DNA from: Terrimonas pollutisoli
GTDB taxonomy: Bacteria; Bacteroidota; Bacteroidia; Chitinophagales; Chitinophagaceae
Direction of reading: 5' to 3'
Length of the DNA: 64,000 bases
Assembly: GCF_029360765.1 (NCBI RefSeq)
Contig: NZ_JARKNA010000001.1
Span: 372,001-436,000, forward strand
A program made the position numbers and the translations under genes. The notes under the pieces were generated by a model that did no database searches, was not told where the DNA came from, and saw only the letters and a list, made by a program, of their open reading frames with translations. This document shows positions 15,074 through 21,988 of the stretch, one piece after another; position 1 is the stretch's first letter, and every line of letters begins with the position of its first letter.

Positions 15074-15928
15074 ATGAAATGGATTACGAGAGAGCGACCA
15101 AAGGTCGACAGGATAGCTTGTCCCTGGCTGATCCGAAACTTTGTTGATAAAGAAGCTGAATTCATCTATGTGCCGGCAGATAAGGTAGCAGAAAGGGCCC
15201 ATGCATTGTCAGCAATAGCTTTTGACATTCCCGGCGTAGAGTACTCGCATCATGCTGACAAATGTACATTTGATTATATTCTTGAAAAACATCAACTCAC
15301 AGATGCGGCCTTACATACTTTAGCAGTGATTGTAAGAGGTGCAGACACTGACAGGCACGATATCGCCAGCCAGGCTTCCGGCCTGTGGGCCATCTCTGCG
15401 GGTTTGGCTTACAACATCAAAGACGATTACGAATTACTTGAAAAGGGAATGATGATTTATGATGCCTTGTACAGTTGGGCCAGCCATCTGCAAAAAGAAA
15501 AGCATACACAGAACCCTGTTGACCATTTGTTCATTGAGGTCTTCAATAAATTCATCAAACAAAAAGCTGCGCAAAGAAAAACACCTGATTGGGTAAAAGA
15601 GCTGAAACAAATAATACAGGACCAGGTGGATACTAATTTAACTTTAACTGACATTTCAAAAAGCCTGGATATTCATCCTTCCTATCTATCCCGGGAATTT
15701 TCCCGGTATTTCAACAATCTTTCGTTTGGTGAATACATAAGAAAGTTGCGTATTGAAAAAGCCGTTGAGTTAATGAAGACAACGGGCTATTCTTTGACCG
15801 AAATTGCCTACCTCACGGGCTTCTCCGACCAAAGTCATTTTACAAGAATTTTCAAACAGCATTTTGAGAAAAGTCCCTCAGCCTATAAAAAAGATTTAGC
15901 AAAAGATCAATCACGTACAAAAGGTTAA
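15074..15928 (+). CDS. ChrB-like chromate-resistance domain fused to C-terminal AraC-type HTH
   Basis: KWITRERPKVDRIACPWLIRNFVDKEAEFIYVPADKV...CTFDYILEKH...IVRGADTDR...GLWAISAGL (ChrB C-terminal family), then LTLTDISKSLDIHPSYLSREFSRYFNNLSFGEYIRKLRIEKAVELM..SLTEIAYLTGFSDQSHFTRIFKQHFEKSPSAYK (AraC HTH). Confidence 0.9.
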   Translation: MKWITRERPKVDRIACPWLIRNFVDKEAEFIYVPADKVAERAHALSAIAFDIPGVEYSHHADKCTFDYILEKHQLTDAALHTLAVIVRGADTDRHDIASQASGLWAISAGLAYNIKDDYELLEKGMMIYDALYSWASHLQKEKHTQNPVDHLFIEVFNKFIKQKAAQRKTPDWVKELKQIIQDQVDTNLTLTDISKSLDIHPSYLSREFSRYFNNLSFGEYIRKLRIEKAVELMKTTGYSLTEIAYLTGFSDQSHFTRIFKQHFEKSPSAYKKDLAKDQSRTKG

Positions 15929-15986
15929 ATGCATTCTATTTCCAGGTCTTAATTCCAAAGCATATTTGCTTTCTAAACTGGCTAAC

Positions 15987-16445
15987 ATGAAATGGATAAC
16001 AAGAGCCAAACCTAAAATAGACAGGATTGCCTGCCCCTGGCTCATTAAAAATTTTGTAGATAAGGACGCTGAATTTGTCTATGTGCCGGTAAACGAAGTG
16101 CTGGCAAGGTCAAAAGAACTGGATGCAATACCCTATGACATTCCAAACGTGGAATATTCACACGACGGAGAGTTCTGCACTTTTGACTTTATTGTTAAAA
16201 AGCATCACCTGGCCGATCCGGCTTTATTGCAACTGGCCATTATTGTGCGTGGAGCGGATACCGATCGTTTTGATCTGGCGCCGCAAGCTGCAGGATTATG
16301 GGCCATTTCAGCAGGCCTCTCTTATAACATACCTGATGATCACGAAATGTTACGAATCGGAATGAAAATGTATGACGCCCTGTACAGTTGGGCAAAATAT
16401 GTTTCTGATGAACGTCATAGCTGGAACCCTGATTTAAAAGTATGA
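15987..16445 (+). CDS. ChrB-domain chromate resistance protein (no HTH)
   Basis: MKWITRAKPKIDRIACPWLIKNFVDKDAEFVYVP...GADTDRFDLAPQAAGLWAISAGLSYNIPDDHEML; paralogous to the N-terminal half of the preceding protein. Confidence 0.9.
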   Translation: MKWITRAKPKIDRIACPWLIKNFVDKDAEFVYVPVNEVLARSKELDAIPYDIPNVEYSHDGEFCTFDFIVKKHHLADPALLQLAIIVRGADTDRFDLAPQAAGLWAISAGLSYNIPDDHEMLRIGMKMYDALYSWAKYVSDERHSWNPDLKV

Positions 16446-17611
16446 ACACCGGTACACCCAATTATTCGCTGAAAGATTTGATAGTCTATTTTCTGAAACT
16501 CGGTACAACAGGTTTTGGAGGACCGGTGGCCCTGGTAGGCTATATGCACCGCGATTTGGTTGAAGATCGCAACTGGATTTCCGAAGAAGAGTATAAACAG
16601 GGGTTGGCCCTGGCCCAATTAGCACCGGGACCACTGGCAGCACAATTAGCAATTTATCTCGGCTTTGTTCATTACCGCGTTGTCGGAGCAACATTGGCGG
16701 GGCTTGCATTTGTATTGCCTTCATTTCTGATGGTTGTGTTGTTGGGCATTGCTTATAAATTGTATGGCGGGCTGCCCTGGATGCAGGCAGTTTTTTATGG
16801 AGTGGGTGCAGCCGTAATCGGTATCATTTTCATGAGTTGCTATAAGCTCACGACAAAATCATTGGGAAGATTTACCCTGCAATCTTTAAAAGAGAACTAT
16901 TTGTTATGGCTCTTTTTTATAGTATCGGCAGCTATAACCATTGCAATAGAAAGAGAAGAGATCCTGTTATTCGTAGGCACAGGTTTATTATATATGTTTA
17001 TTAAGGCGCCGCCAAAATGGTTGACAAATAAAGCGGCCAATTCAATTGCTCTCTTGCAAATTGGATTTTGGGATTATGAAATGGGTGTGCTTGGTAAGAT
17101 AGCCCTCTTTTTTACAAAGGCAGGAGCTTTTGTTTTTGGAAGTGGTTTGGCCATCGTTCCATTTCTTCATAGCGGGGTAGTAGCAGAAAATCACTGGCTC
17201 ACAGAGCAACAGTTCCTGGATGCTGTGGCAGTAGCGATGATCACTCCGGGCCCTGTGGTTATCACCGTTGGCTTTATTGGTTATTTGATTGCTGGCTTTC
17301 CAGGCGCCTGTGTGGCAGCATTGGCAACATTTCTTCCCTGCTACCTGTTTACGATTTTGCCTGCCCCTTATTTTAAAAAGATAGCCGGCAACAAAAGTAT
17401 TAAAGCCTTTGTGGATGGAATTACGGCAACGGTAATTGGCGCATTGGCTGGCGCAGTAGTGGTAATGGCTACCAGAACTATTGTCGATATCCCCACGGCT
17501 TTAATAGCGGCTGCCACCATTTTTGTTTTAATTTACATCACCAAAATCCGGGAGCCTTATATTATACTGGTTGGTGCAGCATTGGGTATCCTTTTTAAAC
17601 AAATGATATGA
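16442..17611 (+). CDS. chrA: chromate efflux transporter ChrA (two-domain CHR family)
   Basis: FLKLGTTGFGGPVALVGYMHRDLVEDRNWISEEEYKQGLALAQLAPGPLAAQLAIYLGF and second half FTKAGAFVFGSGLAIVPFLHSGVVAENHWLTEQQFLDAVAVAMITPGPVVITVGFIGYL. Confidence 0.96.
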   Translation: MNTGTPNYSLKDLIVYFLKLGTTGFGGPVALVGYMHRDLVEDRNWISEEEYKQGLALAQLAPGPLAAQLAIYLGFVHYRVVGATLAGLAFVLPSFLMVVLLGIAYKLYGGLPWMQAVFYGVGAAVIGIIFMSCYKLTTKSLGRFTLQSLKENYLLWLFFIVSAAITIAIEREEILLFVGTGLLYMFIKAPPKWLTNKAANSIALLQIGFWDYEMGVLGKIALFFTKAGAFVFGSGLAIVPFLHSGVVAENHWLTEQQFLDAVAVAMITPGPVVITVGFIGYLIAGFPGACVAALATFLPCYLFTILPAPYFKKIAGNKSIKAFVDGITATVIGALAGAVVVMATRTIVDIPTALIAAATIFVLIYITKIREPYIILVGAALGILFKQMI

Positions 17612-18333
17612 ATAGAAAGCAATTTATTTCAGCTTCAGGTGTTTTAGCCGCTACAAGCATTTTACCCACTAATTCTGTATTGGCGCAGCATTATGAAGAA
17701 AATGGCCTGGATAAACTGACCGATGCAAACGGAAATTTTCAGCATCTGCCGCTGCCTTATAACAAAAATTTTCTCGAACCCCACATGGATGAAGAAACCG
17801 TTTACCTGCATCATACTTTTCATCATGGCGGGGCCGTAAAAGCGGCAAATGTTGATCTGCAAAAAATCCGCAAAGCAATGGATGAAAATAACCTGGAGAC
17901 GGTTGATTACTGGACAAGGAAATTGTCTTATCATTTTTCCTCGCATGTGCTGCATACCATCTTCTGGACGAACTTAACAAATAAGAAAACGGACCCTGGC
18001 GGCGAATTGCTAAAGCGGATTGAAAAAGATTTTGGCAATTACGATAAATTGAAAATGTATTTAGCAAAAACATCCAAAGATATTGATGGCAATGGCTGGG
18101 GTATTTTAGGCTACCAGCCTTATTCGGATAAACTTACCGTACTGCAATGTGAAAATCATGAAAGGCTTACACAATGGGGTGTCATCCCTTTGCTGGTGGT
18201 AGATGTTTGGGAGCATGCTTATTATCTTAAATACAAAAACAAACGAACAGATTTTGTGGATACGATGTTGCAAATCATCAATTGGGATAATGTGGCGGAT
18301 CGGTTAAACACGGCAATTAAACTAGCGAAGTAA
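17608..18333 (+). CDS. Fe/Mn superoxide dismutase-like protein with N-terminal signal sequence
   Basis: LPLPYNKNFLEPHMDEETVYLHHTFHHG...VLHTIFW...GNGWGIL...LLVVDVWEHAYYLKYKNKRTDFVDTMLQIINWDNV; ATGA overlap with chrA. Confidence 0.92.
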   Translation: MNRKQFISASGVLAATSILPTNSVLAQHYEENGLDKLTDANGNFQHLPLPYNKNFLEPHMDEETVYLHHTFHHGGAVKAANVDLQKIRKAMDENNLETVDYWTRKLSYHFSSHVLHTIFWTNLTNKKTDPGGELLKRIEKDFGNYDKLKMYLAKTSKDIDGNGWGILGYQPYSDKLTVLQCENHERLTQWGVIPLLVVDVWEHAYYLKYKNKRTDFVDTMLQIINWDNVADRLNTAIKLAK

Positions 18334-18487
18334 AAATGCATGAAAAAAATGAAGATTGTTCATTTGTCAATCTTTAAAATAAAATCAGTTTAATCATTAT
18401 TGAGTAATGATAGAATTTGAAGAACGATGATCATCGGTTTTTAAAATTTTCTTGTGAAAGCGATTTAAATATATTTGCAAATACAAA

Positions 18488-18567
18488 AGCACGGGGTGCC
18501 TGGTGGAAGCCAGGCTGAGATTATACCCGGAACCTGATTTGGATAATGCCAACGTAGGGATGCAAAC
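18488..18567 (+). promoter_or_regulatory. TPP (THI element) riboswitch aptamer
   Basis: acggggtgcctggtggaagccaggctgagattatacccggaacctgatttggataatgccaacgtaggga matches the THI consensus (GGGGUGCC...GGCUGAGA..AUACCC..GAACCUGAU..GG.UAAUGCC..CG.AGGGA). Confidence 0.97.
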
Positions 18568-18588
18568 TGAAAATATTTTCATTTTATG

Positions 18589-18629
18589 CTCCATTCTTTG
18601 GTTATCCAATCGAATGGAGTTTTTGTTTT
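18589..18629 (+). terminator. Intrinsic terminator serving as riboswitch expression platform
   Basis: ctccattc-N15-gaatggag followed by tttttgtttt, between the aptamer and the first ATG (18645). Confidence 0.85.
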
Positions 18630-18644
18630 AAACAACAACATGAA

Positions 18645-19367
18645 ATGGAAATACAAAAAGCAAACGCTGAATTGATTCCCCGCAGCCAGCAAAACTGGCA
18701 AAACAGGCCGGAGTGGTTTTTTAATCGTGAACATACTGACACCTACGAGCAATGGTATGAAGGCCGTTACAAACGGGCCGAGATCTGGCAAAAGAAAATA
18801 ATGGAGCAGCTTGTTTCAAAAGATAGACGGGTAAAAACGCTGCTTGAGTTTGGATGCGGTACTACCCGCTTTACCCGTTGGTGGAAAGAGATAGGCATTG
18901 AAGCGACCGGTGGTGATATTTCTCCACTCATGTTATCACAGGCCATCGAACTTTTTGAAGGCGACCTGGTAATGGCTGACTCACACTATATGCCATTCAA
19001 AGACCATGTGTTTGACGCCCTGGCATTCATTACCACTTTTGAATATTACAAAGATCCTGTACAGGTGATCAGGGAAGCCGCACGGGTTGCCAGATATGGT
19101 ATAGCGATGGGAATGATGAACCGAAACTCCACCAAAGTGGTAAGAAGAAGGGTGCAACAATTGTTCGGTAAAAATCCTTTTTATATCACCGCCACTTTTT
19201 ACACACCTGCACAGCTTACAAAGATCATCCACCAGGCACTTGAAGGACGAGACTATTCCATTGAATGGACGTGCACGGGTCTTCCCAAATGGTTTCCTGC
19301 ACAGCAATGGAGCTTGCCGCTGGGAGATTTTTTCGGCTTATACATACAACTAAATGATGTGGCATGA
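18645..19367 (+). CDS. class I SAM-dependent methyltransferase, TPP-riboswitch controlled
   Basis: VKTLLEFGCGTTRFTRWWKEIGIEATGGDISPLMLSQAI...ADSHYMPFKDHVFDALAFITTFEYYKDPVQVIREAARV. Confidence 0.9.
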   Translation: MEIQKANAELIPRSQQNWQNRPEWFFNREHTDTYEQWYEGRYKRAEIWQKKIMEQLVSKDRRVKTLLEFGCGTTRFTRWWKEIGIEATGGDISPLMLSQAIELFEGDLVMADSHYMPFKDHVFDALAFITTFEYYKDPVQVIREAARVARYGIAMGMMNRNSTKVVRRRVQQLFGKNPFYITATFYTPAQLTKIIHQALEGRDYSIEWTCTGLPKWFPAQQWSLPLGDFFGLYIQLNDVA

Positions 19368-20428
19368 ATGATATAAATGAAAAGCTTGGGAAAATAGATC
19401 AGCATTTGTTTGAGCACTTTATCAGCAACAAATGTGGACGACATCGTGCTGAAGTCATTGCTGGGCCACAATTTGGCGTAGACGTTGCGCTCATTGATCT
19501 GCCGGGTGAAATAGCAATGGCGTTAACCAGTGACCCTTTATCTCTTATTCCAACCTTGGGCCTGCAAGAATCTGCCTGGTTATCCGTGCAACTGATGGCC
19601 AATGACATGGCAACAACAGGGTATGCACCTATGTATGGACAGTTTGTATTGAATCTCCCTGCTGGTTTTTCAAAAAGTGATTTTAAAATTTACTGGGATT
19701 ATATCCATCAATTTTGTTCTAAAATAGGAGTAGCTGTAACAGGCGGGCATACGGGTTTTATTGAAGGACAAAATTCTACCATCGCCGGAGGCGGTACGTT
19801 TTTTACTGTTGCACCTAAAAATAAAATGCTTGTATCCAAATATGCCAACCCGGGAGATTCTATTTTGGTGACAAAGGCATGTGCGATCTCTTCGGCGGCT
19901 ATTCTTGCGATGAGCTTCCCCGAAACCGTCCGCAACAAATTGGGAACGGAACTTTTTCAAAAAGCCTGCGATAGCTTTTATGATACATCTTCCCTGGAAG
20001 ATGCATTAGCGGCTGCCGGAAAAAACAGGGAACATGATGATATAACTGCTATGCACGATGTAACGGAAGGTGGTGTAATGGGTGCGATATACGAATTGAC
20101 CAAGGCTTCGGATAGTGGTGCGATCGTTTATAATGAAAGATTACCTGTCGGTCACCTGCAACAGGAAATTTGCGAATTATTTTCGTTGGATCCGCGGCAT
20201 TGTATTGGTGCCGGTTCCATGATTATTACCTGTAAAAAAGGAACAGCTACTGCTGTTATCAATCGCCTGGCCAGGGAAAATATTGCTTGTGTGGAAGTGG
20301 GAGAATTGGTAGAAAAAAACAAGGGCATCAAATTGATTGAAAACGGAACAACCAGCGATGTAGTTTATTTTGAAGAAGATCCTTATTGGGCAGCTTTCTT
20401 TACTGCATTTAATTCAGGATGGAAATGA
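19364..20428 (+). CDS. PurM-superfamily (AIR synthase-related / HypE-ThiL-like) protein
   Basis: GVDVALIDLPGEIAMALTSDPLSLIPTLGLQESAWLSVQLMANDMATTGYAPMYGQFVLNLP...VTGGHTGFIEGQNSTIAGGGTFF...HDDITAMHDVTEGGVMGAIYEL. Confidence 0.85.
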   Translation: MNDINEKLGKIDQHLFEHFISNKCGRHRAEVIAGPQFGVDVALIDLPGEIAMALTSDPLSLIPTLGLQESAWLSVQLMANDMATTGYAPMYGQFVLNLPAGFSKSDFKIYWDYIHQFCSKIGVAVTGGHTGFIEGQNSTIAGGGTFFTVAPKNKMLVSKYANPGDSILVTKACAISSAAILAMSFPETVRNKLGTELFQKACDSFYDTSSLEDALAAAGKNREHDDITAMHDVTEGGVMGAIYELTKASDSGAIVYNERLPVGHLQQEICELFSLDPRHCIGAGSMIITCKKGTATAVINRLARENIACVEVGELVEKNKGIKLIENGTTSDVVYFEEDPYWAAFFTAFNSGWK

Positions 20429-21069
20429 TAACAACATTTAAAAGAAATATAAAGCCCGGCATTTATGTGGTGGTTGATCCTTCCATGGCGGAAGCTGTGC
20501 TGCTGGATAGAATAGAACGATGTGCGCAGGAAGAAATAGTGGCGCTGCAGGTCTGGGATAATTTTTTACCTGGGCAAAACATATATAAGCTGCTGCAAAG
20601 GATCTGTGAACTGTGTCATGCAAGAGATATTCCTGTAATCATTAATAACAGGTGGCAATTGCTAGAAAATATACCGTTGGATGGCGTCCATTTTGACAAA
20701 GTCCCCGGAAATTACCAGTTGATAAAAGAAGTTATAAAAAGACCATTTATAAGCGGAGTTACCTGCAACAATGAATTATCAGTGGTGCATTGGGCAAATG
20801 AACAACAGTTGGATTATCTTTCTTTCTGTTCAATGTTTCCTTCCAGCACCAGCAACAGTTGCGAGCTGGTGCATTTCGACACGATCCGCGAGGCAAAAAA
20901 AATTTCCTCCTTACCTGTTTTTTTGACGGGAGGTATACGTCCCGGAAATATGCATGAATTGGATGGACTGGGTTATACAGGTATCGCTGTAGTCTCCGGC
21001 ATAATGAATACAAACAAGCCGGATGAGTCAATAAAAGAATATCGCGAAAAACTAAAAAATAAATCATGA
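20419..21069 (+). CDS. ThiE-like thiamine phosphate synthase family protein
   Basis: GIYVVVDPSM...VALQVWDNFLPGQNIYKLLQRICELCHARDIPVIINNRWQLLENIPLDGVHFDK...ISGVTCNNELSVVHWANEQQLDYLSFCSMFPSST...PVFLTGGIRPGNMHELDGLGYTGIAVVSGIM; TIM-barrel TMP synthase layout plus riboswitch context. Confidence 0.82.
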   Translation: MEMITTFKRNIKPGIYVVVDPSMAEAVLLDRIERCAQEEIVALQVWDNFLPGQNIYKLLQRICELCHARDIPVIINNRWQLLENIPLDGVHFDKVPGNYQLIKEVIKRPFISGVTCNNELSVVHWANEQQLDYLSFCSMFPSSTSNSCELVHFDTIREAKKISSLPVFLTGGIRPGNMHELDGLGYTGIAVVSGIMNTNKPDESIKEYREKLKNKS

Positions 21070-21347
21070 GAATTGAAACGATAAAAAAACTTTGTTGTCC
21101 TTTTGATAAGTCTGAATTGGCGTTAACAGCCATTGCAAAGGATATCAATGAAAATATAATCGAAGGACTGCTGATCTGTGATGAATGTAAACGTGTATAT
21201 CCTATTGTAAAAGGAGTACCTATTATGAGCCCTGACGAATATCGTGAATTTAAATTGGAACAACCTTTATTGGAGCGATGGCAAAAGCAACTGAATGGAA
21301 AGTCGGTTGATAATTTCCGGTTGGTTGACAAGAATACAACGACCTAA
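21066..21347 (+). CDS. Trm112/YcaR-family zinc-ribbon-like protein
   Basis: IKKLCCPFDKSELALTAIAKDINENIIEGLLICDECKRVYPIVKGVPIMSPDEYREF; paired CP.D / CDEC cysteines and the Y-P-I-x-x-G-V-P-I-M core. Confidence 0.85.
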   Translation: MRIETIKKLCCPFDKSELALTAIAKDINENIIEGLLICDECKRVYPIVKGVPIMSPDEYREFKLEQPLLERWQKQLNGKSVDNFRLVDKNTTT

Positions 21348-21439: not shown

Positions 21440-21988
21440 GTGAACATAGTTCTAAAATATTTCAATCTGTTCTTTCTCCTGTTGCCCGTGATGTTGTTTT
21501 CGCAGGTAGACCAAAGGCGGGCCGGCAATCAACGTTTGAACGACACTATCTGGACCACCGGGCTGCAAACACTTTTTTCCAGCCAAACCATCGGCAGCAA
21601 GGTGACAACGCAATTGCGCTCTGCTGTTTCTACAGGTAAGCCTGGCATTATCGTTTCCTTTGGTATTACCATGAGCAGGGAAAAATTAGTGACCGCAGAT
21701 GACGAAAGCAAAGCCATTTTAAAAACAACCGGTGGAAAAAGAATAACACTACAGATCGTCAGCGGGACGATGACTAATTTTTTGGAAGCGCCAACTGTCC
21801 TGGAATCAATTCTTCATTTTAAGCTTCATCCGGATGATATTGCGCTTTTAAAAAAAGAAAAGGTAACAGACGTAAACATCATTGTTGAAAGTGGTAACTA
21901 TAACTACGGCTTGCACGAAAAGGCGCAGGGAATTTTAAATACACAATTAAGCCGGGCGTTAGATAGAACGAATACAGGAATAAAGTAA
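21440..21988 (+). CDS. hypothetical secreted protein
   Basis: ORF with N-terminal signal peptide (MNIVLKYFNLFFLLLPVMLFSQ); no recognised domain. Confidence 0.6.
   Translation: MNIVLKYFNLFFLLLPVMLFSQVDQRRAGNQRLNDTIWTTGLQTLFSSQTIGSKVTTQLRSAVSTGKPGIIVSFGITMSREKLVTADDESKAILKTTGGKRITLQIVSGTMTNFLEAPTVLESILHFKLHPDDIALLKKEKVTDVNIIVESGNYNYGLHEKAQGILNTQLSRALDRTNTGIK

Follow-up and report, generated by a model that had tools for sequence, protein, structure and literature searches.

A thiamin pyrophosphate-controlled four-gene cassette of Bacteroidota and its possible role in supplying thiamin phosphate

Bacteroidota that lack thiC, thiG or thiE are commonly classed as thiamin auxotrophs, and the partners of the small protein Trm112 that have been characterised so far mostly methylate tRNA, rRNA or release factors. 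A thiamin-linked operon with both a methyltransferase and a ThiE-type gene is the bacimethrin (bcm) cluster. Bacimethrin and methoxythiamin are discussed in PMC12345177 and PMC12637900, and the known Bacteroidetes operons behind a thiamin pyrophosphate (TPP) riboswitch are thiSEGCHF-tenI, OMthi and pnuT-tnr3 (PMC5613172). Here we analyse a 64,000-nt stretch of Terrimonas pollutisoli (assembly GCF_029360765.1, contig NZ_JARKNA010000001.1, positions 372,001-436,000, forward strand; hereafter the window, whose numbering is used throughout), in which a TPP riboswitch precedes four overlapping genes for a class I methyltransferase (MT) dependent on S-adenosylmethionine (SAM), a PurM-like, a ThiE-like and a Trm112-like protein. 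The enzymes of this cassette fit no recognised step of thiamin metabolism, and it probably marks an undescribed route of making or rescuing thiamin in many Bacteroidota. Its features are as follows:

18482-18577, + strand: TPP riboswitch aptamer (THI element, RF00059), full-length (Rfam 68.1 bits, E 3e-11)
18589-18629 (approximate), + strand: stem-loop and T-run, probable intrinsic terminator of the expression platform (sequence reading, hairpin scan)
18645-19367, + strand: class I SAM-dependent methyltransferase, 240 aa, likely Trm112 partner (Methyltransf_11, 3.6e-16)
19364-20428, + strand: PurM-superfamily ATP-using enzyme, 354 aa, of an uncharacterised 'AIR synthase family' branch (AIRS, AIRS_C, 2.6e-17)
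20419-21069, + strand: ThiE-like TIM barrel, 216 aa, without the pyrophosphate/Mg residues (TMP-TENI, 1.5e-31)
21066-21347, + strand: Trm112-like zinc protein, 93 aa (PF03966, 1.6e-9)

A first-pass annotation of this DNA had described the four tightly coupled open reading frames (ORFs) with these same coordinates and overlaps (ATGA between the MT and PurM-like genes, 10 nt between the PurM-like and ThiE-like genes, ATGA between the ThiE-like and Trm112-like genes), and its four family names are right at the superfamily level, given the Pfam matches to Methyltransf_11, AIRS_C, TMP-TENI and Trm112p. The near-consensus THI aptamer that it had read is confirmed by Rfam at a score above the gathering score of 54.3 bits, with the aptamer core present, and RF00059 is the sole RNA family that Rfam matched in the entire window. 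Where it had placed an intrinsic terminator, a stem-loop and T-run are seen (CTCCATTC...GAATGGAG, then TTTTTGTTTT), in agreement with our own hairpin scan; a stricter consensus terminator scan (loops of at most 8 nt) does not list this hairpin. Folding of the window leader beats that of its own shuffles (z = -3.8), and terminator-like hairpins lie ahead of the first gene in 48 of 85 leaders, compared with 5.8 in shuffles, so that some hosts may exert control by termination and the rest by other means. We infer that the cassette is switched on by low TPP.

Conservation was assessed in two samples. The first comprised 120 genomes of the window's own family, searched with the PurM-like protein; five of them, counting that of the window, carry the cassette, and the four relatives have the same gene order and a TPP aptamer. 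A sixth match was rejected as a genuine HypE sitting in a hyp operon. The wider sample came from one scan of GTDB genomes with the MT alone as query, so that the choice of loci was made without regard to the aptamer or the three remaining genes; it gave 154 relatives, of which 80 loci were retrieved with up to 10 kb per flank (1.50 Mb in total), and divergent cassette forms are under-sampled because these 80 were the best-scoring. In all 80 loci the TPP core pattern lies 5' of the MT gene, and it was found nowhere else in the 1.50 Mb, nor in shuffles. The PurM-like gene directly follows the MT gene in 80 of 80 loci, and all four genes stand in the same order in 79 of 79 intact loci, the eightieth (L079) being broken off by a contig edge. 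The genes overlap in most loci (median gaps -1, -10 and -4 nt), and no locus was found in which the MT stands without its three companions. Conservation of the four-gene order behind THI elements had been set beforehand as a test of the first-pass annotation, and both order and riboswitch proved essentially invariant. Since they are kept in every intact locus gathered through the MT alone, a chance arrangement is excluded, and the best explanation is that the four genes form one functional unit.

No neighbour outside the four genes is conserved beyond close relatives or genus-level synteny, and a wider operon or a conserved transporter neighbour was therefore rejected; nor are linked ThiC, ThiG, ThiD or ThiE genes conserved beside the cassette in relatives. 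Across 83 loci the pairwise distances of the four proteins correlate (r = 0.65-0.80, in statistics that ignore phylogeny). The tree of the joined proteins cuts across taxonomic orders: Ferruginibacter (Chitinophagales) groups with Pedobacter (Sphingobacteriales), and the window's cassette falls inside a well-supported group of Flavobacteriales and Cytophagales, with other genomes of its family branching elsewhere. This conflict with taxonomy indicates horizontal spread as a cassette across orders. The segment's base composition is unremarkable. Carriage by phages or plasmids was considered and rejected, as no relative of the MT was found in viral contigs and plasmid-borne MTs are only about 30% identical, and a defence system was likewise dismissed, PADLOC having returned only a generic methyltransferase match. 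As separate observations, two cassette copies are present in Arenibacter genomes (L019/L020 and L023/L026), one pair sharing a contig at a distance of about 32 kb, and in one relative the cassette is closely followed, on its own strand, by a strong cobalamin riboswitch (97 bits, L010:309-500).

The ThiE-like protein (mean identity 46% over 83 loci) has a confidently predicted structure (predicted local distance difference test, pLDDT, 94) whose closest match is Bacillus subtilis ThiE, at a template modelling (TM) score of about 0.8. Its family scores are low, with 102 bits against the thiamin-phosphate synthase model TIGR00693 (cut-off 145) and 46.6 bits against the TenI thiazole tautomerase model NF005819 (cut-off 251). 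In an alignment of 42 such sequences to B. subtilis ThiE, Gln57 and His107 are retained in all 42, and the GG phosphate motif is kept as well. Five other positions are replaced: Arg59 by Trp, Lys61 by Asn or His, Lys159 by Ala or Ser, Asp93 mostly by Asn, and Asp112 mostly by Pro. There are few exceptions to these replacements and none of the sequences regains the canonical residue set, which a canonical ThiE of the same phylum, used as a control, does retain. In ThiE these five residues bind pyrophosphate and Mg, and Gln57 binds the pyrimidine. Lys159 of ThiE is mutated in PDB 3o16. The first-pass name ThiE-like is right as to barrel family (TMP-TENI), with the correction that the synthase residues are missing, and a role as the host's ordinary thiamin-phosphate synthase was rejected on the loss of catalytic residues. 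New relative to ThiE are Cys137 and Cys148, present in 85 of 85 ThiE-like sequences. In one genome (G048, L106:3520-6898) a TPP aptamer is followed by a TonB receptor and then by a ThiE-like gene of cassette type that stands alone, with no MT, PurM-like or Trm112-like gene nearby; this relative lacks Cys137, Cys148 and Trp46, which ties these residues to the cassette, on one example only.

These residues also bear on the idea that the cassette serves to produce or to eliminate a methylated thiamin analogue acting as an antivitamin. Bacimethrin clusters offer an established case in which a TPP-linked methyltransferase accompanies ThiE-type genes, and a patchy, transferable distribution would suit a competition or resistance trait; however, the barrel lacks the residues for coupling a pyrimidine pyrophosphate, and no transporter, self-resistance or other bcm-type gene is linked, which leaves this role very unlikely.

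The PurM-like protein falls short of the models for both ThiL and HypE. It scores 62.8 bits against the ThiL model TIGR01379 (cut-off 184) and 79 bits against the HypE model TIGR02124 (cut-off 251.6), and in the window it ends in NSGWK, without the acceptor Cys of HypE-type proteins, a true HypE of the family ending in PRIC. The predicted structure (pLDDT 92) is nearest in fold to HypE, then to ThiL and SelD, and the Asp residues of the ATP site are invariant. Superfamily membership, as first annotated, is upheld by the AIRS and AIRS_C matches; identity with ThiL or HypE is rejected on these scores, on the missing C-terminal Cys and on the presence of a separate canonical ThiL elsewhere in the genome. 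The nearest proteins outside Bacteroidota are uncharacterised members of an 'AIR synthase family' from haloarchaea and one cyanobacterium (Acaryochloris), with best scores of 171 bits for that family against 61 for HypE and 37 for ThiL. On plasmids of three Haloarcula species (L126, L130, L131), such a relative is divergent from genes for a thiamine-binding protein and a thiamine ABC transporter subunit. As a general thiamin marker outside Bacteroidota these relatives were rejected, the association holding in those three loci and failing in Halobacterium, Haloferax and Acaryochloris.

With a mean identity of 81% over 83 loci, the MT is the most conserved protein of the cassette, and its SAM motif residues are invariant. 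The best NCBIfam match, far below cut-off, is to the C-methyltransferase family UbiE/MenG. The Trm112-like protein reaches 37.9 bits against PF03966 (cut-off 22), stays at 57 bits below the cut-off of 77 for NF038101, and matches an archaeal Trm112-type chain at 2.7e-12. C11, D14, C38 and C41 are invariant, so that the zinc cysteines are kept, with Asp14 filling the remaining CxxC position. As the two proteins are always co-encoded and the zinc cysteines are kept, it is plausible from sequence that the Trm112-like protein binds and stabilises the MT as a heterodimer. Such a pair might instead modify RNA or protein and thereby tune translation or enzyme activity at low TPP, with no thiamin chemistry at all, in keeping with the substrates established for most Trm112 partners, with the weak profile match of the MT to one of these partners, Bud23, and with an extreme conservation that would fit a macromolecular substrate. 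However, the TPP switch and a ThiE-like barrel that retains the pyrimidine residue point to thiamin, and the MT is not found apart from the other three genes; we regard modification of macromolecules as highly improbable.

The thiamin genes of the hosts, for which gene absence across whole genomes was judged by profile searches, set the metabolic context. In the window's genome there is no ThiC, ThiG or ThiD and no TMP-TENI gene besides the cassette's own, and a single canonical ThiL (310 bits) lies on contig C55; the claim that this is not an ordinary thi operon therefore holds. Three further TPP aptamers in this genome, one of them under the gathering score, precede a TonB receptor, a PnuC/PnuT-type transporter and Obg. 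At the last of these sites (contig C8, L003:1501-1595, 56 bits, minus strand), about 390 nt separate the aptamer from the Obg GTPase gene that comes after it, a small lipoprotein-like ORF lies next to the aptamer in antisense orientation, and there is no thiamin gene downstream. Among 31 cassette-carrying genomes, only three contain ThiC, true ThiG, true ThiD and canonical ThiE together (28 of 31 are without them), and all 31 have a canonical ThiL (196-333 bits; in G125 it is split into two adjacent pieces). Canonical ThiE, at a threshold of at least 140 bits, occurs in 26 of the 120 family genomes and in 0 of the 5 with a cassette, which is a weak contrast. ThiL uses thiamin phosphate as its substrate, so these hosts must obtain it through a kinase acting on imported thiamin, through the cassette, or both.

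The TPK model PF04263 finds a match in 5 of the 31 cassette genomes and in only 2 of the 120 family genomes, and a divergent TPK-like family exists that this Pfam model misses. In Pedobacter (L112:1756-3045) and Mucilaginibacter (L113:2705-4245), a second noncanonical TMP-TENI gene adjoins such a divergent TPK-like gene, which PF04263 scores at only 13 bits; TPK is thus under-called in Bacteroidota. Given this divergent family and the family control, the near-absence of TPK is uninformative, and the cassette as a stand-in for a missing TPK is unsupported, PF04263 being absent from 118 of 120 family genomes with or without the cassette. A related proposal is that the PurM-like protein is itself the kinase that converts imported thiamin to thiamin phosphate, the other three genes being accessory. 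The PurM superfamily does include ThiL, the ubiquitous ThiL of the hosts requires that product, and the Haloarcula relatives adjoin thiamin uptake genes; yet the strict presence of all four genes would be left unexplained, and another thiamin kinase must exist, since most family genomes have neither the cassette nor a detectable TPK. This assignment strikes us as improbable.

Taken together, these results lead us to propose, tentatively and as quite possible, that a horizontally spread, TPP-controlled cassette salvages a thiamin-like compound, yielding thiamin phosphate as substrate of ThiL. The cassette would be turned on when TPP is scarce, and its product would support TPP supply. The Trm112-like protein would bind and stabilise the MT, the ThiE-like barrel would bind a thiamin-type substrate in its pyrimidine and thiazole-phosphate pockets without using a pyrimidine pyrophosphate, the PurM-like enzyme would activate an intermediate with ATP, and the MT would methylate an intermediate. 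In this way, the four proteins would make thiamin phosphate from a thiamin-like compound that is damaged or of external origin, and ThiL, present in all hosts examined, would turn the thiamin phosphate into TPP. What points to salvage or supply is the aptamer at 80 of 80 loci, the invariant order, 28 of 31 hosts without the thi genes, and ThiL in all 31; the correlated distances, the tree conflict and the lack of any other conserved neighbour; the invariant ATP-site, SAM and zinc residues; a barrel that keeps Gln57 and His107 and has lost the pyrophosphate/Mg residues; and the positions of the G048 relative behind a TPP-controlled TonB receptor and of the Haloarcula relatives beside thiamin-binding genes. 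Of the path first annotated, in which the four families act on a thiamin precursor or analogue, the gene order, the riboswitch and the distinction from a thi operon have stood, with two corrections: the ThiE-like protein is without the synthase residues, and ThiL is not what the PurM-like protein is.

Instead of salvage, the cassette might be a self-contained synthesis of thiamin phosphate, or of one half of it, from ordinary metabolites, with ATP-dependent ring closure by the PurM-like protein as in AIR synthase, a ring methyl added by the MT, and the barrel coupling the two halves by displacing a group that is not pyrophosphate. In most hosts none of the known synthesis genes that act ahead of ThiL is present, the cassette is self-contained and transferable, and the best NCBIfam match of the MT, well under cut-off, is a C-methyltransferase family. 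However, three catalytic proteins seem too few for two rings, no gene for sulfur transfer or for a radical-SAM enzyme is linked, and the three hosts that have full thi operons would gain a redundant route. Synthesis from simple precursors is in our judgement unlikely, and salvage of a damaged or external thiamin compound is preferred. Several points weigh against salvage too. The cassette has a patchy distribution (5 of 120 family genomes), and most cassette-free family genomes are likewise without canonical ThiE and detectable TPK, so that it is not needed for thiamin use as such; three hosts combine it with a complete de novo pathway; the PurM-like relatives in Halobacterium, Haloferax and Acaryochloris have no thiamin neighbours; and salvage as proposed gives no reason for a methylation step. 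The cassette is better regarded as an accessory tied to low TPP than as an essential replacement. A stronger version of the proposal, which we consider possible and rather more doubtful, is a new mobile thiamin pathway that would comprise a Trm112-activated small-molecule MT, a pyrophosphate-free, ThiE-derived barrel with two cysteines, and a new PurM-type ATP step, handing thiamin phosphate to ThiL.

Around the cassette in the window, the segment directly upstream (15074-18333) is a probable chromate resistance cluster: besides a chromate transporter and a superoxide dismutase, it encodes two ChrB-like proteins, one of which is a fusion with an AraC-type DNA-binding domain. Downstream, 92 nt past the Trm112-like gene and on the same strand, lies a 182-aa ORF without a Pfam match (21440-21988), which is not kept next to the cassette in other loci.

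The riboswitch and its four genes are a discrete, transferable unit. If the cassette does make or rescue thiamin, auxotrophy predictions would be wrong for many soil, freshwater and marine genera, a Trm112-dependent methyltransferase would enter small-molecule metabolism, where to our knowledge none has been described, and a much-studied vitamin would gain new enzyme chemistry. The open-access papers searched yielded no report that links Trm112 to a thiamin operon or describes this gene set.

Compared with the Bacteroidetes TPP operons, the cassette shares the phylum, the aptamer class and a ThiE/TenI-family gene, but their other genes are missing here, and MT, PurM-like and Trm112-like genes are missing there. 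The bcm cluster differs in its other genes, unlinked here, and in the synthase residues that the ThiE-like protein lacks. ThiE and TenI have the same barrel, Gln57, His107 and GG phosphate motif, whereas the cassette protein is without Arg59, Lys61, Asp93, Asp112 and Lys159 and has the invariant Cys137 and Cys148. ThiL, HypE and SelD share the fold and invariant ATP-site aspartates with the PurM-like protein, which falls far below the ThiL and HypE cut-offs. The 'AIR synthase family' proteins of haloarchaea and Acaryochloris resemble it over the full length (about 31-33% identity, with GGHT and HD-TEGG motifs), but are uncharacterised, stand outside any four-gene cassette and have thiamin neighbours only in Haloarcula. 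Finally, Trm112 and its partners Trm9, Trm11, Mtq2 and Bud23 offer the same pairing of a small zinc protein with a class I methyltransferase; whereas the known partners act on RNA or proteins, the putative cassette pair belongs to a TPP-controlled metabolic unit. The regulator thus belongs to a known class; the genes that it precedes have, so far as we can tell, not been described as a set, and there is a substantial chance that their chemistry is new.

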